From a virus: 45,449 bases of DNA. Position 1 is the first letter of the stretch. Each line of letters opens with the position of its first letter. A program made the position numbers and the translations under genes. Positions 2,851 through 13,344 of this stretch are shown piece by piece. The stretch is from the IMG/VR virus record IMGVR_UViG_3300043773_001175, positions 1 through 45,449 of that record. The stretch is one strand, 5' to 3'. The notes under the pieces were generated by a model. It was given only the letters and a program-made list of their open reading frames with translations. It was not told the origin of the DNA and searched no databases.

Positions 2851-2879
2851 TATTAAATATTATGACAAATGGTGGAATT

Positions 2880-5129
2880 ATGACGGAAATTACGAACGAT
2901 ATTTCGACTCGCCTACTGGCTCAAGAAAATCTTCTCATTAATCGAGCACCTGTTCAGACTGCGTCCTTTGACGTAAAGTCTCGAATTCTTACTCTGCCCA
3001 TGTGGAAAAACATGACGCCAGTAATTGAGGAAATGCTCAAAGCGCATGAAGTTGGTCATGCTCTCTATACCAACGAAAATCTGTTCACTGAGTTTCAATC
3101 AAACAATCCTAAGAATGTTCCATTTGGCTATCTCAATGTTCTCGAAGATGTGCGTATCGAGAAGTTGATGAAACGCAAATATCCTGGACTTCGCAAAACA
3201 TTCACAGCTGGTTACTCTGAGTTAAATGAGCGCAATTTCTTTGCGATTAAAAATCGCAATATCTCCGATCTCTTATTGATCGATCGTATCAATCTTTGGT
3301 ACAAAGTTGGTTTCAAATCAGGTGTAAAATTCACTGTCTCTGAGAAATATCTTGTTGACAAAATTGATAAACTTGAATCCGTAAACGATGTGATTGCTTT
3401 GGCTACATCAATCTATGATTTCGTCAAACGTGAGAATGATCGCAAACGTGCCGAGCGTGAGAACGATGTTGAGTACAAGAAACTTAAAGTTGAGCAAGAG
3501 CAAGATGATCTAGAAGATCTTGAGTCTGAATTGCTGCATGATTCTGAAATGTTTGATGATGATGATTGGGCATCGGATGCCGATTTTTCAGATCCTGAGA
3601 AAAATGAATCTGATGACGAAGAGGACAAGGATAAACTTACCGTAAAGGGTAATGGTGGAATTAGTGAAGCAAATGAAACACCAGAAGAGTTCGAAGATCT
3701 AGAAAGTCAAACTGCGAATGCTTTTGCTCGTGCATTGGCTGAATCTGCAGACACTTCAACTGAATATGTCTATGTGAACTTACCCTCATTCAAGAATTGT
3801 TCAACAATTAAAATTGATTACAAAACTGTGTTGCGTGAGACCACTGAAATTCTGGAGCATATTCGTACAGAACCAAACTCTTATGGTGAGCGTGATCCAA
3901 ATATTGATAAAGTATATGATCGCTACGAATCATTCAAGAATGATACAAGTCGTATTGTCAACTATCTCATCAAAGAGTTTGAGATGAAAAAAGCAGCAAG
4001 CGATTATAAGCGTCAATCTGTTGCTAAGACAGGTGTGCTTGATACTCGCAAACTTGCTTCGTATAAAATTCGTGAGGATTTGTTCAAACAAATTACCGTT
4101 ACAAAAGATGGGTTCAAACACGGAATGGTTTTTACAATTGACTGGTCTGGTTCCATGTCGGATTATCTTGAGGAAACTGTAAAACAGTTGATCTCTTTGG
4201 TAACATTTTGCTATCGTGCGAAAATCCCATTTGAGGTTTATGCCTTCAGCGACAACTGTAATTCCAATGACATTGTTATGTTGCAAAAAGAAAGAGAGGA
4301 AGATGCTCTTCTAAGACAAGCGAATACTGTTTATCTTGGAAATCATTTCAAAATGATTGAGTTGTTCAACAGTAAAGCAACTTTGAGCGAGTTCCAGCGT
4401 ATGTGCCGCAATCTCTATGTTATGAGTTGCGGTTACCGTAGTGATAGAAGACCTGATCGCTACGGCGAAAAGTATCAACTCAATGGCACACCTCTAAATG
4501 AAGCAATTGCGTGGCTGTATGATTATCTTGGTGAATTTAAAACACGCCATCAGATTGAGAAGTTGACAATGATCAAACTTACGGATGGTGATGGTGGTGG
4601 TGTTCATCGCTACATCAAAGAAGATGGGACACTTCAATATGTTAGTGGTACTGAATATCGTGTGATAAATGGGAAACATGTTCGTATCAAACAAGTTGGA
4701 TTTATCCTTGACAAATACACAAAGAAAACTTATGCATTTGAAGGATATCAATTTACAAACAGTGTTTGCAAAATGATTCAGGATCGACATGATGCTGCAG
4801 TTGTTGGTTACCATGTTATTGGTCGTGGTCGTCGTGAACTTATGTATACTGTTGATCGTTATGGTGTTGCTAGAAATAACATCGAGCAACAAGATTTGGC
4901 TATTAAAATTCGTAAGGGTTTTAATGATGAGATGTTCTTTCCAGTAAATTTGGATGGTCATGATGAACTTTTCCTTTTACCGAATACAATCAAAGTTGAT
5001 AATACAGAACTAGAGGAAGATATGTCCAAATTGACTAGCAATCAGATTGCTCGAAAATTCGGAAAATACTTGGGTGCTAAGAAAACCAGCCGAGTCCTGT
5101 TGAATCGATTTGTGGCTGCGGTAGCCTAA
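2880..5129 (+). CDS. CobT-like VWA-domain protein with HExxH motif
   Basis: A 749-residue protein. I choose ATG 2880 because GGTGGA (2870-2875) precedes it; the upstream in-frame ATG at 2862 has no ribosome-binding site. An N-terminal HEVGH motif lies at residues 56-60 (LKAHEVGHALYT), the zinc-binding pattern of metallopeptidases. A highly acidic, low-complexity linker spans ~200-270. A C-terminal von Willebrand A fold carries the MIDAS motif DWSGSMS at 421-427. This architecture is that of CobT-like proteins encoded by marine T4-type phages next to a CobS/MoxR-like ATPase, which is present here at 5501. Known MoxR/VWA pairs act as chaperone or metal-insertion machines; the phage target is unknown. 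Confidence 0.8.
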   Translation: MTEITNDISTRLLAQENLLINRAPVQTASFDVKSRILTLPMWKNMTPVIEEMLKAHEVGHALYTNENLFTEFQSNNPKNVPFGYLNVLEDVRIEKLMKRKYPGLRKTFTAGYSELNERNFFAIKNRNISDLLLIDRINLWYKVGFKSGVKFTVSEKYLVDKIDKLESVNDVIALATSIYDFVKRENDRKRAERENDVEYKKLKVEQEQDDLEDLESELLHDSEMFDDDDWASDADFSDPEKNESDDEEDKDKLTVKGNGGISEANETPEEFEDLESQTANAFARALAESADTSTEYVYVNLPSFKNCSTIKIDYKTVLRETTEILEHIRTEPNSYGERDPNIDKVYDRYESFKNDTSRIVNYLIKEFEMKKAASDYKRQSVAKTGVLDTRKLASYKIREDLFKQITVTKDGFKHGMVFTIDWSGSMSDYLEETVKQLISLVTFCYRAKIPFEVYAFSDNCNSNDIVMLQKEREEDALLRQANTVYLGNHFKMIELFNSKATLSEFQRMCRNLYVMSCGYRSDRRPDRYGEKYQLNGTPLNEAIAWLYDYLGEFKTRHQIEKLTMIKLTDGDGGGVHRYIKEDGTLQYVSGTEYRVINGKHVRIKQVGFILDKYTKKTYAFEGYQFTNSVCKMIQDRHDAAVVGYHVIGRGRRELMYTVDRYGVARNNIEQQDLAIKIRKGFNDEMFFPVNLDGHDELFLLPNTIKVDNTELEEDMSKLTSNQIARKFGKYLGAKKTSRVLLNRFVAAVA

Positions 5130-5139
5130 AGTCCTTGAC

Positions 5140-5174
5140 TGTAGGGGTCCAAAATACCCCTACAGGATGTAGGG
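5140..5174 (+). terminator. Stem-loop with two mutually exclusive pairings
   Basis: TGTAGGGGT 5140-5148 pairs with ACCCCTACA 5156-5164 (9 bp, 7-nt loop). The same CCCTACA (5158-5164) can instead pair with TGTAGGG at 5168-5174. No U-run follows. It lies between the VWA gene and the promoter at 5192, and matches the stem-loops upstream of 2822 and 13766. Confidence 0.55.
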
Positions 5175-5191
5175 TTATCCCAACAAATTGC

Positions 5192-5220
5192 TTGACATTT
5201 ATTCGGTTTGGACGTATAAT
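5192..5220 (+). promoter_or_regulatory. Sigma70-type (early) promoter
   Basis: TTGACA 5192-5197, 17-bp spacer, TATAAT 5215-5220. The flanks (cTTGACATTTATT and gTATAATTATT) are nearly identical to the promoter at 2822. Confidence 0.9.
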
Positions 5221-5250
5221 TATTGTATAAACTTGAAAAGGAACTTAATT

Positions 5251-5445
5251 ATGTCTACGAAAAAACCACGCAATGTATTGACAACTTACACTGACCCAGT
5301 GTTGAATGTTTTGGTTACAGTTTACAAACCACAACGCACTCCGAAGTCCAAAATGTCTGGTAAAAATTCACGTGGGTTTGTAGTTGGAACTTCTGGTTTT
5401 GCCAATGGATTTCCACGAAGTGTGTCTGTGTTCGGCAAGAACTAA
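5251..5445 (+). CDS. Hypothetical small basic protein (64 aa)
   Basis: ATG 5251 follows AAAAGGA (5236-5242) and the promoter at 5192; the frame open upstream is the promoter itself. The product is small and basic, rich in Ser, Gly and Thr, with MSTKKPRN at the start and a Gly/Phe-rich end. No family recognised. It sits alone between two strong promoters, between the CobT-like and CobS-like genes. It might bind nucleic acid because of its charge, but there is no direct evidence. Confidence 0.55.
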   Translation: MSTKKPRNVLTTYTDPVLNVLVTVYKPQRTPKSKMSGKNSRGFVVGTSGFANGFPRSVSVFGKN

Positions 5446-5448
5446 TGC

Positions 5449-5477
5449 TTGACATTTAATTGTCAATTTGGTATAAT
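5449..5477 (+). promoter_or_regulatory. Sigma70-type (early) promoter
   Basis: TTGACA 5449-5454, 17-bp spacer, TATAAT 5472-5477, 23 nt ahead of the CobS-like gene start at 5501. Confidence 0.9.
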
Positions 5478-5500
5478 TTAATTTTGATATGGAGAATGTG

Positions 5501-6649
5501 ATGAATCAAGAAGTGTTTGAGTCTAAATTGTTCGAGATGTTTCCAGATGTTAAATCATCGGGCACAGTTTCTCGGCAACAAATTGTTTCTACGATGGAAC
5601 AACTTGGAATCAACAAGTATCCCACATGGTTGATGGTAAATAAAGTTGGTCGTGGTCTATATGCTATCGCTGGTGGCGCAAGCAATGCTGTTGCTAAACC
5701 TGCTGAAACTTTCGAGAATGATGTGCGAAAACTCAATTATGTAACTGAAGCAACTGTTGCTGCTCCCCTCGTTGATCCGAACTATGTTGCTTGGGGAAAT
5801 CACAGCGATGTTGATGCTATTCTAAAATCTAAACTGTTTCATCCGATCTATATCACAGGTCCGACTGGTAATGGTAAGTCTACGATGGTTGAGCAGATTT
5901 GTGCCAAACACAAAATCCCTCTCATTCGTGTTAATTTGAATGCAACCGATGACGAAGATAAATTGATTGCTTCTAAGACCCTTGTCGATGGTAATGTGGT
6001 TATTGAGGATGGTCCAGTCGTTATCGCTATGCGTAAGGGCATTCCTATTCTGATTGACGAAATTGATGCTGGTGGCGCAAACCTGCTCATGTGTCTTCAG
6101 GGTGTTCTAGAGGGCAAACCCTTGTATATTAAATCAAAGAACGAAATCGTGTATCCTAAACAGGGGTTCAATGTAATCGCAACTGCTAACACCAAAGGTA
6201 AAGGTAGTGATGATGGTCGTTACATTGGCACCAATGTGTTAAATGAAGCATTCCTAGAGCGTTTCGCTATCGTGTTTGAGCAAGAGTATCCTGGTGCTAA
6301 AGTCGAAGCGAAAATTGTTACCAACTTGATGAAGTCGCTGAACTGCCTTGATGGTGAGTTTACGTCAGTGCTAATCAAATGGGCAGATGCGATTCGTCGC
6401 ACGTTCGAGGATGGTGGTGTTGACGAAACAATTACGACTCGTCGTTTGGTTCATATCGTGAAGAACTTTGCGATCTATAAAGACAAGCGTAAATCTGTTC
6501 AGTTGGCTATCAATCGATTTGACAGTCACACCAAAGATGCGTTCTTGGATTTGTTCGATAAAGTTGCAGCTGATCCGAATGCAGATTTGAATCCAGCACC
6601 AACCCAAGAGCCTGTTGTGAAACAGCCTGATGAAGAAGTACCATTTTAA
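5501..6649 (+). CDS. CobS/MoxR-like AAA+ ATPase with N-terminal accessory domain
   Basis: A 382-residue protein. Start at ATG 5501, six nt after GGAG (5491-5494); an in-frame ATG at 5489 overlaps that site. Walker A GPTGNGKST starts near residue 120, Walker B is PILIDEID, sensor-1-like FNVIATANT and arginine-finger-like LNEAFLERF follow, as in the MoxR/CobS branch of AAA+ proteins. The first ~55 residues form a separate domain (FPDVKSSGTVSR..., PTWLMVNKVGRG) that recurs in the small protein at 6715. CobS-like ATPases work with VWA partners; the CobT-like gene at 2880 is the obvious one. The C-terminus is Pro/Glu-rich and disordered. Confidence 0.85.
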   Translation: MNQEVFESKLFEMFPDVKSSGTVSRQQIVSTMEQLGINKYPTWLMVNKVGRGLYAIAGGASNAVAKPAETFENDVRKLNYVTEATVAAPLVDPNYVAWGNHSDVDAILKSKLFHPIYITGPTGNGKSTMVEQICAKHKIPLIRVNLNATDDEDKLIASKTLVDGNVVIEDGPVVIAMRKGIPILIDEIDAGGANLLMCLQGVLEGKPLYIKSKNEIVYPKQGFNVIATANTKGKGSDDGRYIGTNVLNEAFLERFAIVFEQEYPGAKVEAKIVTNLMKSLNCLDGEFTSVLIKWADAIRRTFEDGGVDETITTRRLVHIVKNFAIYKDKRKSVQLAINRFDSHTKDAFLDLFDKVAADPNADLNPAPTQEPVVKQPDEEVPF

Positions 6650-10386: not shown

Positions 10387-10770
10387 ATGACACCATTTGA
10401 CTTTATTAATGCCATTAATCAAACAAAAGATACTAATATAATTAAGGAACCACAGGCTGAGAAAGATTATAAATCATTCATTATCAACAGAGGTCTAGCG
10501 TACTTCCCAGATACTGTTTTACAAGCCAACGAAATGAATCGCCGTCCATGGACTCCAAAGGACTGGCAATTTTCGTTTTTGCTAAATAGTATTGCCAAGA
10601 AAAAGAGGTTCAGTAAATGGGCTGAAAAACTGCCCAAAAATGAAGACTTGGACTTGGTCATGCAATACTATGATTATAGTAAACAAAAAGCAATGGCTGT
10701 TCTGACTATATTGACACCAGAGCAGTTGGCTATGATAAAACAAAAATTCGAAAAAGGTGGAAGACTATGA
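10387..10770 (+). CDS. 62: Clamp loader small subunit gp62
   Basis: A 127-residue protein; T4 gp62 is 187, so this is a short form, as in several marine T4-type phages. Recognition rests on its place between gp44 and RegA and on its internal pattern: MTPFDFINAINQTK, then YKSFIINRGLAYFPDTVLQANEMNRRP and KKKRFSKWAEK (each a conserved gp62 block). It is the non-ATPase subunit of the loader. It overlaps RegA by 4 nt (ATGA), as in T4, consistent with coupled translation. Confidence 0.9.
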   Translation: MTPFDFINAINQTKDTNIIKEPQAEKDYKSFIINRGLAYFPDTVLQANEMNRRPWTPKDWQFSFLLNSIAKKKRFSKWAEKLPKNEDLDLVMQYYDYSKQKAMAVLTILTPEQLAMIKQKFEKGGRL

Positions 10771-11192
10771 CAGTTGAAACAGTCTATTATGATTGGACTC
10801 CAGAAAGTATGCTCGAGGTGATTCTCCCAGAACCAGACAACTTTCTAAAAATAAAAGAAACATTGACACGTATTGGTATTGCATCACGCAAAGAACACAA
10901 GTTATACCAGTCTTGTCATATTCTACACAAACAAGGTAGATATTTCATTGTTCATTTTAAAGAGTTATTTGCATTAGATGGCAAAGAATCTAATTTAACA
11001 AACAATGATATCGAAAGAAGAAACACAGTCGCTGTATTATTGCAGGATTGGGGTTTGTTGAAGATTGCGTTTGCTGCATCTGCAGAACCACAAGCATCCC
11101 TATCACAAATTAAAGTATTATCTTTCAAAGAGAAAGATGAATGGGAACTTGTTCCAAAATACAATATTGGAAAAAAAGGTAAATTAAAATAA
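10767..11192 (+). CDS. regA: Translational repressor RegA
   Basis: A 141-residue protein (T4 RegA is 122) with the RegA pattern: an N-terminal helix-strand, then IASRKEHKLYQSCHILHKQGRYFIVHFKELF, the conserved RNA-binding and core region. A short run of Lys closes the C-terminus. In T4 RegA binds the start regions of early mRNAs, including those of 44 and 45, and blocks their translation. Its position directly after gp62, with the two genes overlapping by 4 nt, is conserved. Targets in this phage cannot be read from the sequence. Confidence 0.9.
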   Translation: MTVETVYYDWTPESMLEVILPEPDNFLKIKETLTRIGIASRKEHKLYQSCHILHKQGRYFIVHFKELFALDGKESNLTNNDIERRNTVAVLLQDWGLLKIAFAASAEPQASLSQIKVLSFKEKDEWELVPKYNIGKKGKLK

Positions 11193-11916: not shown

Positions 11917-11927
11917 TAATCTAGTAT

Positions 11928-12148
11928 ATGTCATCACTGTTGGTGACGACAATTATGAAATCGACAGTGATGATGTTTTACAGACAGGATTTCGTCGTCC
12001 AGAGTTAGTAGAGTTAGATAATGATGATGACGAACTTTCTGATTATGTAAAATTTAGACTCTTTTTAGCAAGACAGCTTGCTTTGATGAAGTTTGAATAT
12101 ATAAATAATATTAGTCCCAGGGATGGGATCGTCAAAGATGGAACCTAG
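11928..12148 (+). pseudogene. Frame-broken small ORF without in-frame start
   Basis: A protein-like reading frame (VITVGDDNYEIDSDDVL, then a long acidic stretch and DYVKFRLFLARQLALMKFEY) runs to TAG 12146-12148. No ATG, GTG or TTG starts it in phase after the previous gene. The ATG at 11928 lies one base out of phase; one extra base after codon 2 would give Met-Ser-Ile-Thr-Val-Gly and restore it. Either a one-base deletion (natural or sequencing), a rare start codon or a frameshift from the previous gene explains this. The last ~30 codons overlap the promoter and 5' part of the putative structured RNA. Confidence 0.45.
12100..12107 (+). promoter_or_regulatory. T4-type late promoter for the RNA at ~12112
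   Basis: An exact TATAAATA, the T4 late -10 box read by the gp55/gp33/gp45-directed RNA polymerase, lies at the end of the broken ORF and directly before a structured, terminator-capped region. Initiation would be expected a few bases downstream, near 12112-12114. Confidence 0.6.
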
Positions 12149-12340
12149 TCCTATCGCGACGTAGTACTCTAGGAACTGGTTGGGGGAAACCAGAAAAGAA
12201 CCCCCACTAATTTAAGAATCCACCTTAGGATCCGTTCGTTGCTACGGCATAAGGCGTCCGTGTAATTACACCTTCGACACGAAAGTTCGAACCAGTATAA
12301 GGTAAGCTGGATGATATGCCTTCGGGGTATCAATTTTTTT
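12112..12340 (+). ncRNA. Putative structured RNA (~230 nt) with pseudoknot and terminator
   Basis: No good ORF covers 12149-12368. Visible pairings: CCTAG 12144-12148 with CTAGG 12169-12173, with inner CTA/TAG; CTGGTT 12176-12181 with AACCAG 12188-12193, whose loop GGGGG (12182-12186) can pair with CCCCC 12201-12205 to form a pseudoknot; CGTGT 12259-12263 with ACACG 12277-12281; CCAG 12292-12295 with CTGG 12307-12310; and a UUCG-capped hairpin plus U7 at the end. A TATAAATA box precedes it. It does not match tRNA, tmRNA, RNase P or riboswitch classes I know. It may be a stand-alone RNA or an attenuator leader of the phasin-Hsp20 genes. Boundaries are approximate. Confidence 0.6.
12313..12340 (+). 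terminator. Rho-independent terminator
   Basis: GATA 12313-12316 with TATC 12328-12331 and CC 12319-12320 with GG 12325-12326, capped by a UUCG tetraloop, followed by seven T (12334-12340). It lies just before the ribosome-binding site of the phasin-like gene. Confidence 0.8.
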
Positions 12341-12368
12341 AATCAAACTCGCTGAAAAGGAGAACAAT

Positions 12369-12603: not shown

Positions 12604-13080
12604 ATGGGTCACGATTTTATCCCCACATTCTGGGGCACTAAAGACATTGACAAATTTTTTGTAGGATTCGATGAACAATGGAATCGCTTACAAAAACTAC
12701 ATGATGATGTAACAAAAAATATTCCAAACTATCCACCATACAACATTCGCAAGAATGATGATAACCATTATACCATTGAGATCGCTGTCGCTGGTTTCGG
12801 TCAGCAAGATATCGATATCGAAATGGCTGATGGTAAACTTATTGTTCGTGGAGAACTAAAGACAGACGATGAGCATAATGACTTCTTGTTCAAAGGTATC
12901 GCAAATCGTGCGTTCACTCGATCATTCGTACTAAATGACGAAGTAGAAGTTAAGGATGCAGAGATGATCAATGGTATGCTTAAAATTTTCTTGGAGCGTT
13001 TAATTCCAGAACATAAGCAACCAAAGAAAATCGCAGTGAGATCTCGTAGTGAAAAGCAATTACTTACTGAGGATAAATGA
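12604..13080 (+). CDS. Small heat-shock protein (Hsp20/alpha-crystallin, IbpA-like)
   Basis: ATG 12604 follows AAGGAGG. The 158-residue protein has an alpha-crystallin domain at ~40-135: YNIRKNDDNHYTIEIAVAGF, IDIEMADGKLIVRGE, FKGIANRAFTRSFVL and the conserved GMLKIFLER near its end (normally G-x-L-x-I/V). It is an ATP-independent holdase that forms oligomers around unfolding proteins. Hsp20 genes occur in many cyanophages and other T4-type phages, where they may help virion assembly or protect replication proteins. The stop overlaps the next small gene (ATGATG). Confidence 0.9.
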   Translation: MGHDFIPTFWGTKDIDKFFVGFDEQWNRLQKLHDDVTKNIPNYPPYNIRKNDDNHYTIEIAVAGFGQQDIDIEMADGKLIVRGELKTDDEHNDFLFKGIANRAFTRSFVLNDEVEVKDAEMINGMLKIFLERLIPEHKQPKKIAVRSRSEKQLLTEDK

Positions 13081-13289: not shown

Positions 13290-13314
13290 AAGGGAGCTTC
13301 GGCTCCCTTTTTTT
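13290..13314 (+). terminator. Strong rho-independent terminator
   Basis: AAGGGAGC 13290-13297 and GCTCCCTT 13302-13309 form an 8-bp stem with a UUCG loop, followed by T7 (13308-13314). Confidence 0.95.
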
Positions 13315-13344
13315 ATAAGAAACATACCATGCATAAATATATGT

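Follow-up and report, generated by a model that had tools for sequence, protein, structure and literature searches.

The DNA between a T4-type late promoter and the phasin-like and hsp20 genes of an uncultured T4-like phage encodes a structured RNA that hundreds of related phage sequences from the environment share, with base pairing preserved despite changes of letter. It is virtually certain that a conserved fold exists. The RNA constitutes a new family of structured RNAs in T4-like phages, nearest in setting to the manA RNA. An earlier note on this DNA had proposed a structured RNA with a pseudoknot behind a T4-type late promoter, and this proposal is strongly supported by covariation and by shuffle tests. 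The RNA is probably a leader rather than a stand-alone small RNA.

Phage and gene neighbourhood

The window, the whole stretch of 45,449 nucleotides that was analysed, is an IMG/VR contig from an uncultured T4-like phage. Its DNA polymerase shares no more than 57% identity with those of cultured phages, and the best matches are cyanophages. A tRNA/tmRNA search of the window found none. Positions 2862–6649 hold a vWA-bearing gene and an ATPase gene, which by their sequences look like the CobT/CobS-like pair of T4-like phages. The features of the RNA locus are collected in Table 1. The RNA region stops ahead of the phasin-like gene (12369) and hsp20 (12604) and lacks convincing coding potential, as the earlier note had stated; 12150–12345 is open in no frame. 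The note had the RNA begin inside a broken ORF. The RNA is indeed entered by an open frame (to 12148), whose conserved C-terminal part lacks a start codon in the window and in two relatives (L005 and L061).

This start-less frame (11919–12148 in the window; GYRRPEL..LSDYVKxRLFLARxLAL) is conserved in these three phages. It lies 3' of the stop codon that closes the Lys/Ala-rich gene, in a different frame, and frameshifting or an unusual start is possible. In relatives of the window the same site holds pqqA (PF08042, E 5e-10), and phages from Lake Baikal with predicted Methylophilaceae hosts have been reported with pqqA (PMC7678222). For these two reasons a methylotroph is the likely host for part of the phage group; for the window phage itself we can only infer such a host.

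Table 1. Features of the RNA locus (window coordinates)
Feature	Position	Strand	Basis or remark
RegA gene (PF01818)	10767–11192		upstream of RNA
Two small Lys/Ala-rich genes			between RegA and RNA
T4-type late promoter TATAAATA	12100–12107	+	placement in relatives
Putative leader RNA, whole	12113–12345	+	inferred 5' end to start of CTCGCT/ribosome-site element
5'-terminal hairpin TCCCA-GGGA-TGGGA	12115–12128	+	GGGATGGGA highly conserved in relatives
Extra lineage domain	12130–12173	+	also in L061, L256, L257; CGTC 12130–12133/GACG 12158–12161; CCTAG 12144–12148/CTAGG 12169–12173
Pseudoknot A	12176–12205	+	S1 12176–12181/12188–12193; S2 12182–12186/12201–12205
Hairpin P1	12218–12231	+	nearly invariant motif ACCUUAGG at 12222–12229
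Hairpin CCGU..ACGG	12232–12247	+	CUGU..ACAG in L203
GUGUAAUUACAC hairpin	12260–12271	+	sequence; type III relatives
Pseudoknot B	12270–12310	+	covariation; model R1; S1 12270–12272/12301–12303; H3 12273–12277/12287–12291; H4 12292–12296/12306–12310
3' hairpin GCC-UUCG-GGG, bulged G	12312–12332	+	ancient hsp20-leader hairpin
ACTCGCT element and Shine-Dalgarno AAGGAG	12347–12362	+	relatives and cyanophages
Phasin-like gene, 74 aa	12369–12593	+	no Pfam match
hsp20	12604–13080	+	PF00011, E 4e-18
Intrinsic terminator closing phasin-hsp20 operon	13290–13316	+	terminator scan, also given as 13290–13309; -13.8 kcal/mol

Promoter, pseudoknots and hairpins

The exact TATAAATA named by the earlier note is present, and its role as a promoter is backed by placement in relatives. 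The octamer alone is at chance level in the window (3 seen, 3.5 expected). TAAATA or TAAGTA lies 0–30 nt ahead of the 5' hairpin in 119/131 distinct instances, compared with a background of 10%. A TATAAATA-like promoter thus stands at the RNA 5' end, as in a T4-type late transcription unit. The geometry of T4 late promoters sets the distance from promoter to transcript start, and by this analogy +1 is predicted at about 12113, approximately 2 nt ahead of the first hairpin. The GGGAUGGGA 5' hairpin was found in 131 of 175 distinct instances.

The GGGGG/CCCCC pairing proposed in the earlier note is exact and constitutes S2 of pseudoknot A. It is closed by S1, in which CTGGTT pairs with AACCAG. 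Because MAFFT alignment A2 of pseudoknot A was out of register, this element was tested by shuffles. All 25 distinct modules at the site take an identical H-type fold; each is beaten by 0–9 of 200 shuffles, and the mean score is 23.2 vs 3.7. The letters of S2 differ widely (GGCAG/CUGUC, GGUAG/CUACC, ACCGG/CCGGU), and the closest variants turn the S2 of the window into GGAGG/CCUCC (L257).

While the earlier inventory included GGGGG/CCCCC, it overlooked pseudoknot B, the ACCUUAGG hairpin and the element upstream of the ribosome site. Pseudoknot B, which is unlike pseudoknot A in both sequence and topology, is built from the 5' strand of S1 (ACC, pairing with GGU), hairpin H3 with the loop CACGAAAGU, the 5' strand of H4, a loop ending in GUAA that contains the 3' strand of S1, and the 3' strand of H4. 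The GUAA (12302–12305) is invariant. Since a perfect-pairing parser is circular for covariation, it was used solely for finding members. Covariation was counted on MAFFT alignments whose motif-anchored sequences had been picked without regard to pairing, together with three model-found copies. The structure-free alignment comprised 55 distinct sequences picked solely by two short motifs, and RNAalifold recovers H3 and H4 on it. With S1 included, 93.8% of cells in this alignment are paired, compared with 70.1% in shuffled and 23–45% in slid alignments, and the covariation score is 0.62 vs 0.20. With the divergent copies added, 96.0% of cells are paired and the score is 0.73; shuffled alignments across both tests have 69–70% of cells paired. 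The pair at the centre of S1 is seen as UA, CG, GC and AU and is paired in 25/25 cases, divergent copies included. Clearly, the pairs of pseudoknot B are kept while the letters change, which is the outcome of the covariation check that the earlier note had suggested. Model R1 matched pseudoknot B once in the window (52.5 bits). A pairing of ACCUUA with UAAGGU, picked by eye, was dropped, as the pseudoknot partner is the strand directly 5' of H3 in all types.

Support for the RNA is comparative; MFE alone is no evidence. The MFE of the region alone was uninformative, with z = -0.70 on the plus strand and -0.32 on the minus strand. A chance structure within a degraded coding region would fit a plus-strand z of this size and the open frame that enters the RNA start. 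It is nevertheless scarcely credible, since compensatory changes already refute it, as do the covariation and shuffle tests and the many independent relatives recovered in two IMG/VR pattern scans (at least 120 rows for type I and 51 rows for type III).

Several smaller elements accompany the pseudoknots. The flanks of P1 vary as AUCC/GGAU, CCC/GGG and ACC/GGU. The 3' arm of the GUGUAAUUACAC hairpin includes A12270 and C12271 of pseudoknot B, so the two folds compete. In the extra domain, the two stems interleave and form a possible third pseudoknot, as judged from sequence; its stems are invariant and therefore give no covariation support. An [AT][CT]GCC-loop-GGG hairpin is present in 163/175 distinct instances, and a CTCGCT-type element ahead of the ribosome site in 169/175. 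The common architecture is a late promoter, the 5' hairpin, pseudoknot A and/or B, the GCC-UUCG-GGG hairpin and the CTCGCT-AGGAG ribosome site. Module content varies: some relatives have A only (L271, L290, L294), many (type I) have B only, and some, the window among them, have both. In one group pqqA is inserted between the 5' hairpin and the core. In L031–L036, L015 and L271, the late promoter and its 5' hairpin precede pqqA and the RNA core follows it, or pqqA stands immediately ahead of the core.

Relation of the RNA to the phasin-hsp20 message

Loci were collected from both directions. Eighty loci were fetched via the phasin-like protein. Of 80 hsp20-anchored loci, 68 have pseudoknot B; seven others are truncated and five have A only, in the same place. 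Among the matches listed, 146/149 RNA-anchored loci lead into hsp20 (84 via phasin, 62 directly), and regA is upstream in 146/150. The model matched the RNA in 11 of 12 large contigs, ten with one strong copy and one (G009) with two. Four more genomes, found via the unrelated DUF7788 gene, again have the RNA in the hsp20 leader. This co-location may partly reflect shared descent of the locus. Exact type I and type III patterns had 0 matches in GTDB genomes, a search in which divergent copies would be missed, so there is no sign of a cellular source. Comparison of the window, type I and type II RNAs with 50,697 phage records by blastn, and of the type III RNA with plasmids, returned short chance matches only.

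The earlier note had read the 3' hairpin as a UUCG-capped terminator, and had suggested a phage sRNA or a transcription attenuator. Neither a stand-alone sRNA with its own terminator nor an attenuator is supported. The hairpin has a stability of -7.9 kcal/mol with its bulge, compared with -13.8 for the true terminator of the operon, and the terminator scan flagged the latter, downstream of the operon, while leaving 12312–12332 unflagged. The U-run behind it is 4 or fewer in 79/163 relatives and 5 or more in 84/163. It therefore has neither the stable GC-rich stem nor the conserved U-run of an intrinsic terminator. Eight cultured T4-like phages that have hsp20 without the pseudoknot RNA (S-CREM1, S-CAM1, S-CAM7, S-CAM8, Sf-CH5, P-SSM2, Syn1 and Methylophilales phage Melnitz) keep the GCC...GGG hairpin with no terminator-type U-run. 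In these seven cyanophages and Melnitz it is mostly directly behind TAAATA and is followed by a C-T-[CT]-G-C-T element and the ribosome site; in ACG-2014f, CTCGCT and the ribosome site are accompanied by another hairpin. The hairpin is therefore part of the hsp20 leader, and the pseudoknot RNA has been inserted ahead of it, behind the promoter. On the strength of the weak bulged stem, the variable U-run and the cyanophage versions, we rejected the hairpin as a terminator. A transcription attenuator or an sRNA 3' end fixed by this hairpin is accordingly very improbable, even with the hairpin and seven T in the window. Because the seven T are directly 3' of the hairpin, some termination is possible there. 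The proper reading of UUCG hairpins in phage leaders is called into question, as the terminator-like one here is an old leader element.

The hsp20 linkage, the old leader hairpin and a real terminator only at 13290 argue that the RNA is most likely the 5' UTR of the late phasin-hsp20 mRNA. About as much speaks for as against the fuller reading, in which a structured 5' leader of this late mRNA would stabilize the message and/or set its translation. The late RNA polymerase would start at about 12113, placing a hairpin at the extreme 5' end of the transcript, followed by pseudoknot A, the ACCUUAGG hairpin and pseudoknot B. The hsp20-leader hairpin would come next, and then an A/U-rich stretch leading to the ribosome site. 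The transcript would continue through phasin and hsp20 to the 13290 terminator. The chain of pseudoknots might act as modular RNA armour or as a gate that affects message stability and/or the level of translation, either by blocking RNases or by binding a phage or host protein, as with the gene 32 mRNA pseudoknot in T4. Such a leader explains the position, the promoter, the absent terminator and the interchangeable modules. Since the modules substitute for each other (A only, B only, both, or in cyanophages the hairpin alone), a general structural role is favoured over the sensing of a single ligand. The leader-armour reading also has points against it: the near-invariance of single-stranded ACCUUAGG and GUAA exceeds what plain armour needs, and a few ectopic copies occur outside hsp20 leaders.

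That near-invariance is in keeping with a riboswitch or translational operator for phasin-hsp20, responsive to a protein or ligand and with its output at the ribosome site. The pseudoknotted fold close to the ribosome site, the competition between the GUGUAAUUACAC hairpin and pseudoknot B for 12270–12271 and the T4 gene 32 precedent (PMC3014915) point the same way. We consider a switch unlikely, as five leaders are without pseudoknot B and ACCUUAGG, copies occur in 3' UTRs, and no conserved alternative fold extending to the ribosome site was seen by eye. The existence of the five leaders makes a ligand switch in particular less favoured.

Ectopic copies of the B-type RNA, with pairs intact, are found 3' of regA (L211), 3' of pqqA with two carbamoyltransferase-like genes separating it from phasin (L030), 3' of DUF7788 genes (L335, L397, L400) and 7 nt ahead of tRNA-Gly (L341). 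In L030 (2430–4920), two adjacent similar genes separate pqqA and the RNA core from phasin; by our own reading this pair presumably encodes carbamoyltransferases. DUF7788 was considered as an obligate partner and ruled out, as the gene is in just 5/12 large contigs of the group. The RNA type mostly tracks Hsp20 relatedness, and it differs in 5/83 pairs with Hsp20 identity of at least 95%. The window and L005 have Hsp20 proteins 97% identical and downstream DNA 93% identical, whereas the RNA is type III in the former and type I in the latter and the intervening RNA is unalignable. Conversely, L061 has an RNA nearly equal to that of the window and a phasin merely 61% identical. From these comparisons, RNA types are occasionally swapped between phages.

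The ectopic copies argue for a self-contained module, and the RNA may act in trans. In that case a stable RNA would be released from the hsp20 transcript by cleavage or termination and would act on a host or phage factor late in infection, and the leader location would be its mere birthplace. The RNA has its own late promoter, its type is replaced between near-identical phages (window type vs L005; L061), the U-run of at least 5 in about half of the relatives is suitable, and manA RNA lies flush between tRNA genes in a cyanophage. We give this a modest chance only, as the terminator is unconserved, hsp20 linkage is 98% among the matches listed, and no separate late promoter for hsp20 was seen between the 3' hairpin and phasin/hsp20. 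A composite is more doubtful: interchangeable pseudoknot modules born in the hsp20 leader might be released to act in trans against a host factor, with cassettes recombining as in an arms race. Under the preferred leader reading, the locus allows an elaborate pseudoknot leader to be tested on a chaperone message of T4-like phages, and the variants found in nature, with A only, with B only, with both or with just the hairpin, are a ready deletion series.

Comparison with known RNAs

The earlier note had matched the RNA to no known class, and the window indeed has no Rfam 15 family above the gathering threshold. When the window region and nine relatives were compared with Rfam at permissive settings, all matches stayed below threshold, and no description of the RNA was found in the searchable literature of freely readable journal papers. 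Big covariation-backed phage RNA families outside Rfam are uncommon, and the present one is frequent in IMG/VR.

The manA RNA (RF01745) is likewise a complex RNA of T4-like cyanophages and aquatic metagenomes. It shares with the present RNA a location in 5' leaders, hsp20/ibpA leaders included: its reported 5' UTR sites extend to genes for ibpA (Hsp20-type) chaperones (PMC2864571). The pseudoknot-B loop is similar to the consensus of the last manA hairpin loop, UAuacAguAAU, but the core motifs of manA are unlike those of the present RNA. Membership in manA was rejected, as the RF01745 model had 0 matches at E<=10 in six phages of the group while positive controls scored 96.6 bits (S-CREM1) and 90.1 bits (ACG-2014f). 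Model R1 gave no convincing match on manA loci. In cyanophage ACG-2014f (L333 1426–1784), manA RNA sits between two tRNA genes with 1-nt spacers, and in S-CREM1 it is also among tRNA-like sequences. These positions suggest that manA may not act solely as a 5' UTR but may be processed into a stable RNA.

The closest known mechanism is that of the pseudoknot operator of T4 gene 32. Gene 32 mRNA is a very stable message whose leader has an H-type pseudoknot ahead of an A/U-rich stretch and the ribosome site (PMC3014915), an order that recurs in the present leader. Like a gene 32-type operator, the present RNA has its leader pseudoknot upstream of the ribosome site. The gene 32 operator, however, is bound by gp32, whereas phasin and hsp20 are downstream here, and the present leader contains two or three pseudoknots and conserved hairpins.

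Other classes share single traits with the RNA. The glnA RNA/glutamine riboswitch (RF01739) is also a structured aquatic RNA in T4-like phages, and in S-CREM1 it is annotated between regA and hsp20 but on the opposite strand; the present loci have no Rfam match. ROSE-type RNA thermometers are also leaders of hsp20-type genes, but a single weak ROSE_3 match (22 bits, cut-off 43) was obtained at one locus, and the ribosome site was not seen to take part in conserved pairing. Small H-type pseudoknots are also typical of type III toxin-antitoxin RNAs (ToxI-like); in the present RNA no tandem near-identical repeats were seen, pseudoknots A and B differing in sequence and topology, and the neighbours are regA, phasin-like and hsp20 genes.

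Two further observations concern tRNA-rich surroundings. A long inverted repeat follows the stop codon of DUF7788 (PF25043) in approximately 24 of 58 distinct phage loci (L335–L414). It is 14–25 bp with 8–110 nt inside, its stem letters vary with pairing intact, and it is often directly ahead of a tRNA. If DUF7788 is Ro60/vWA-like, this arrangement looks like that of Y RNAs. A weak model match (L435, G008:154133–154179; 19.5 bits) lies in a tRNA-rich region; the phage concerned carries the RNA in its hsp20 leader as well.
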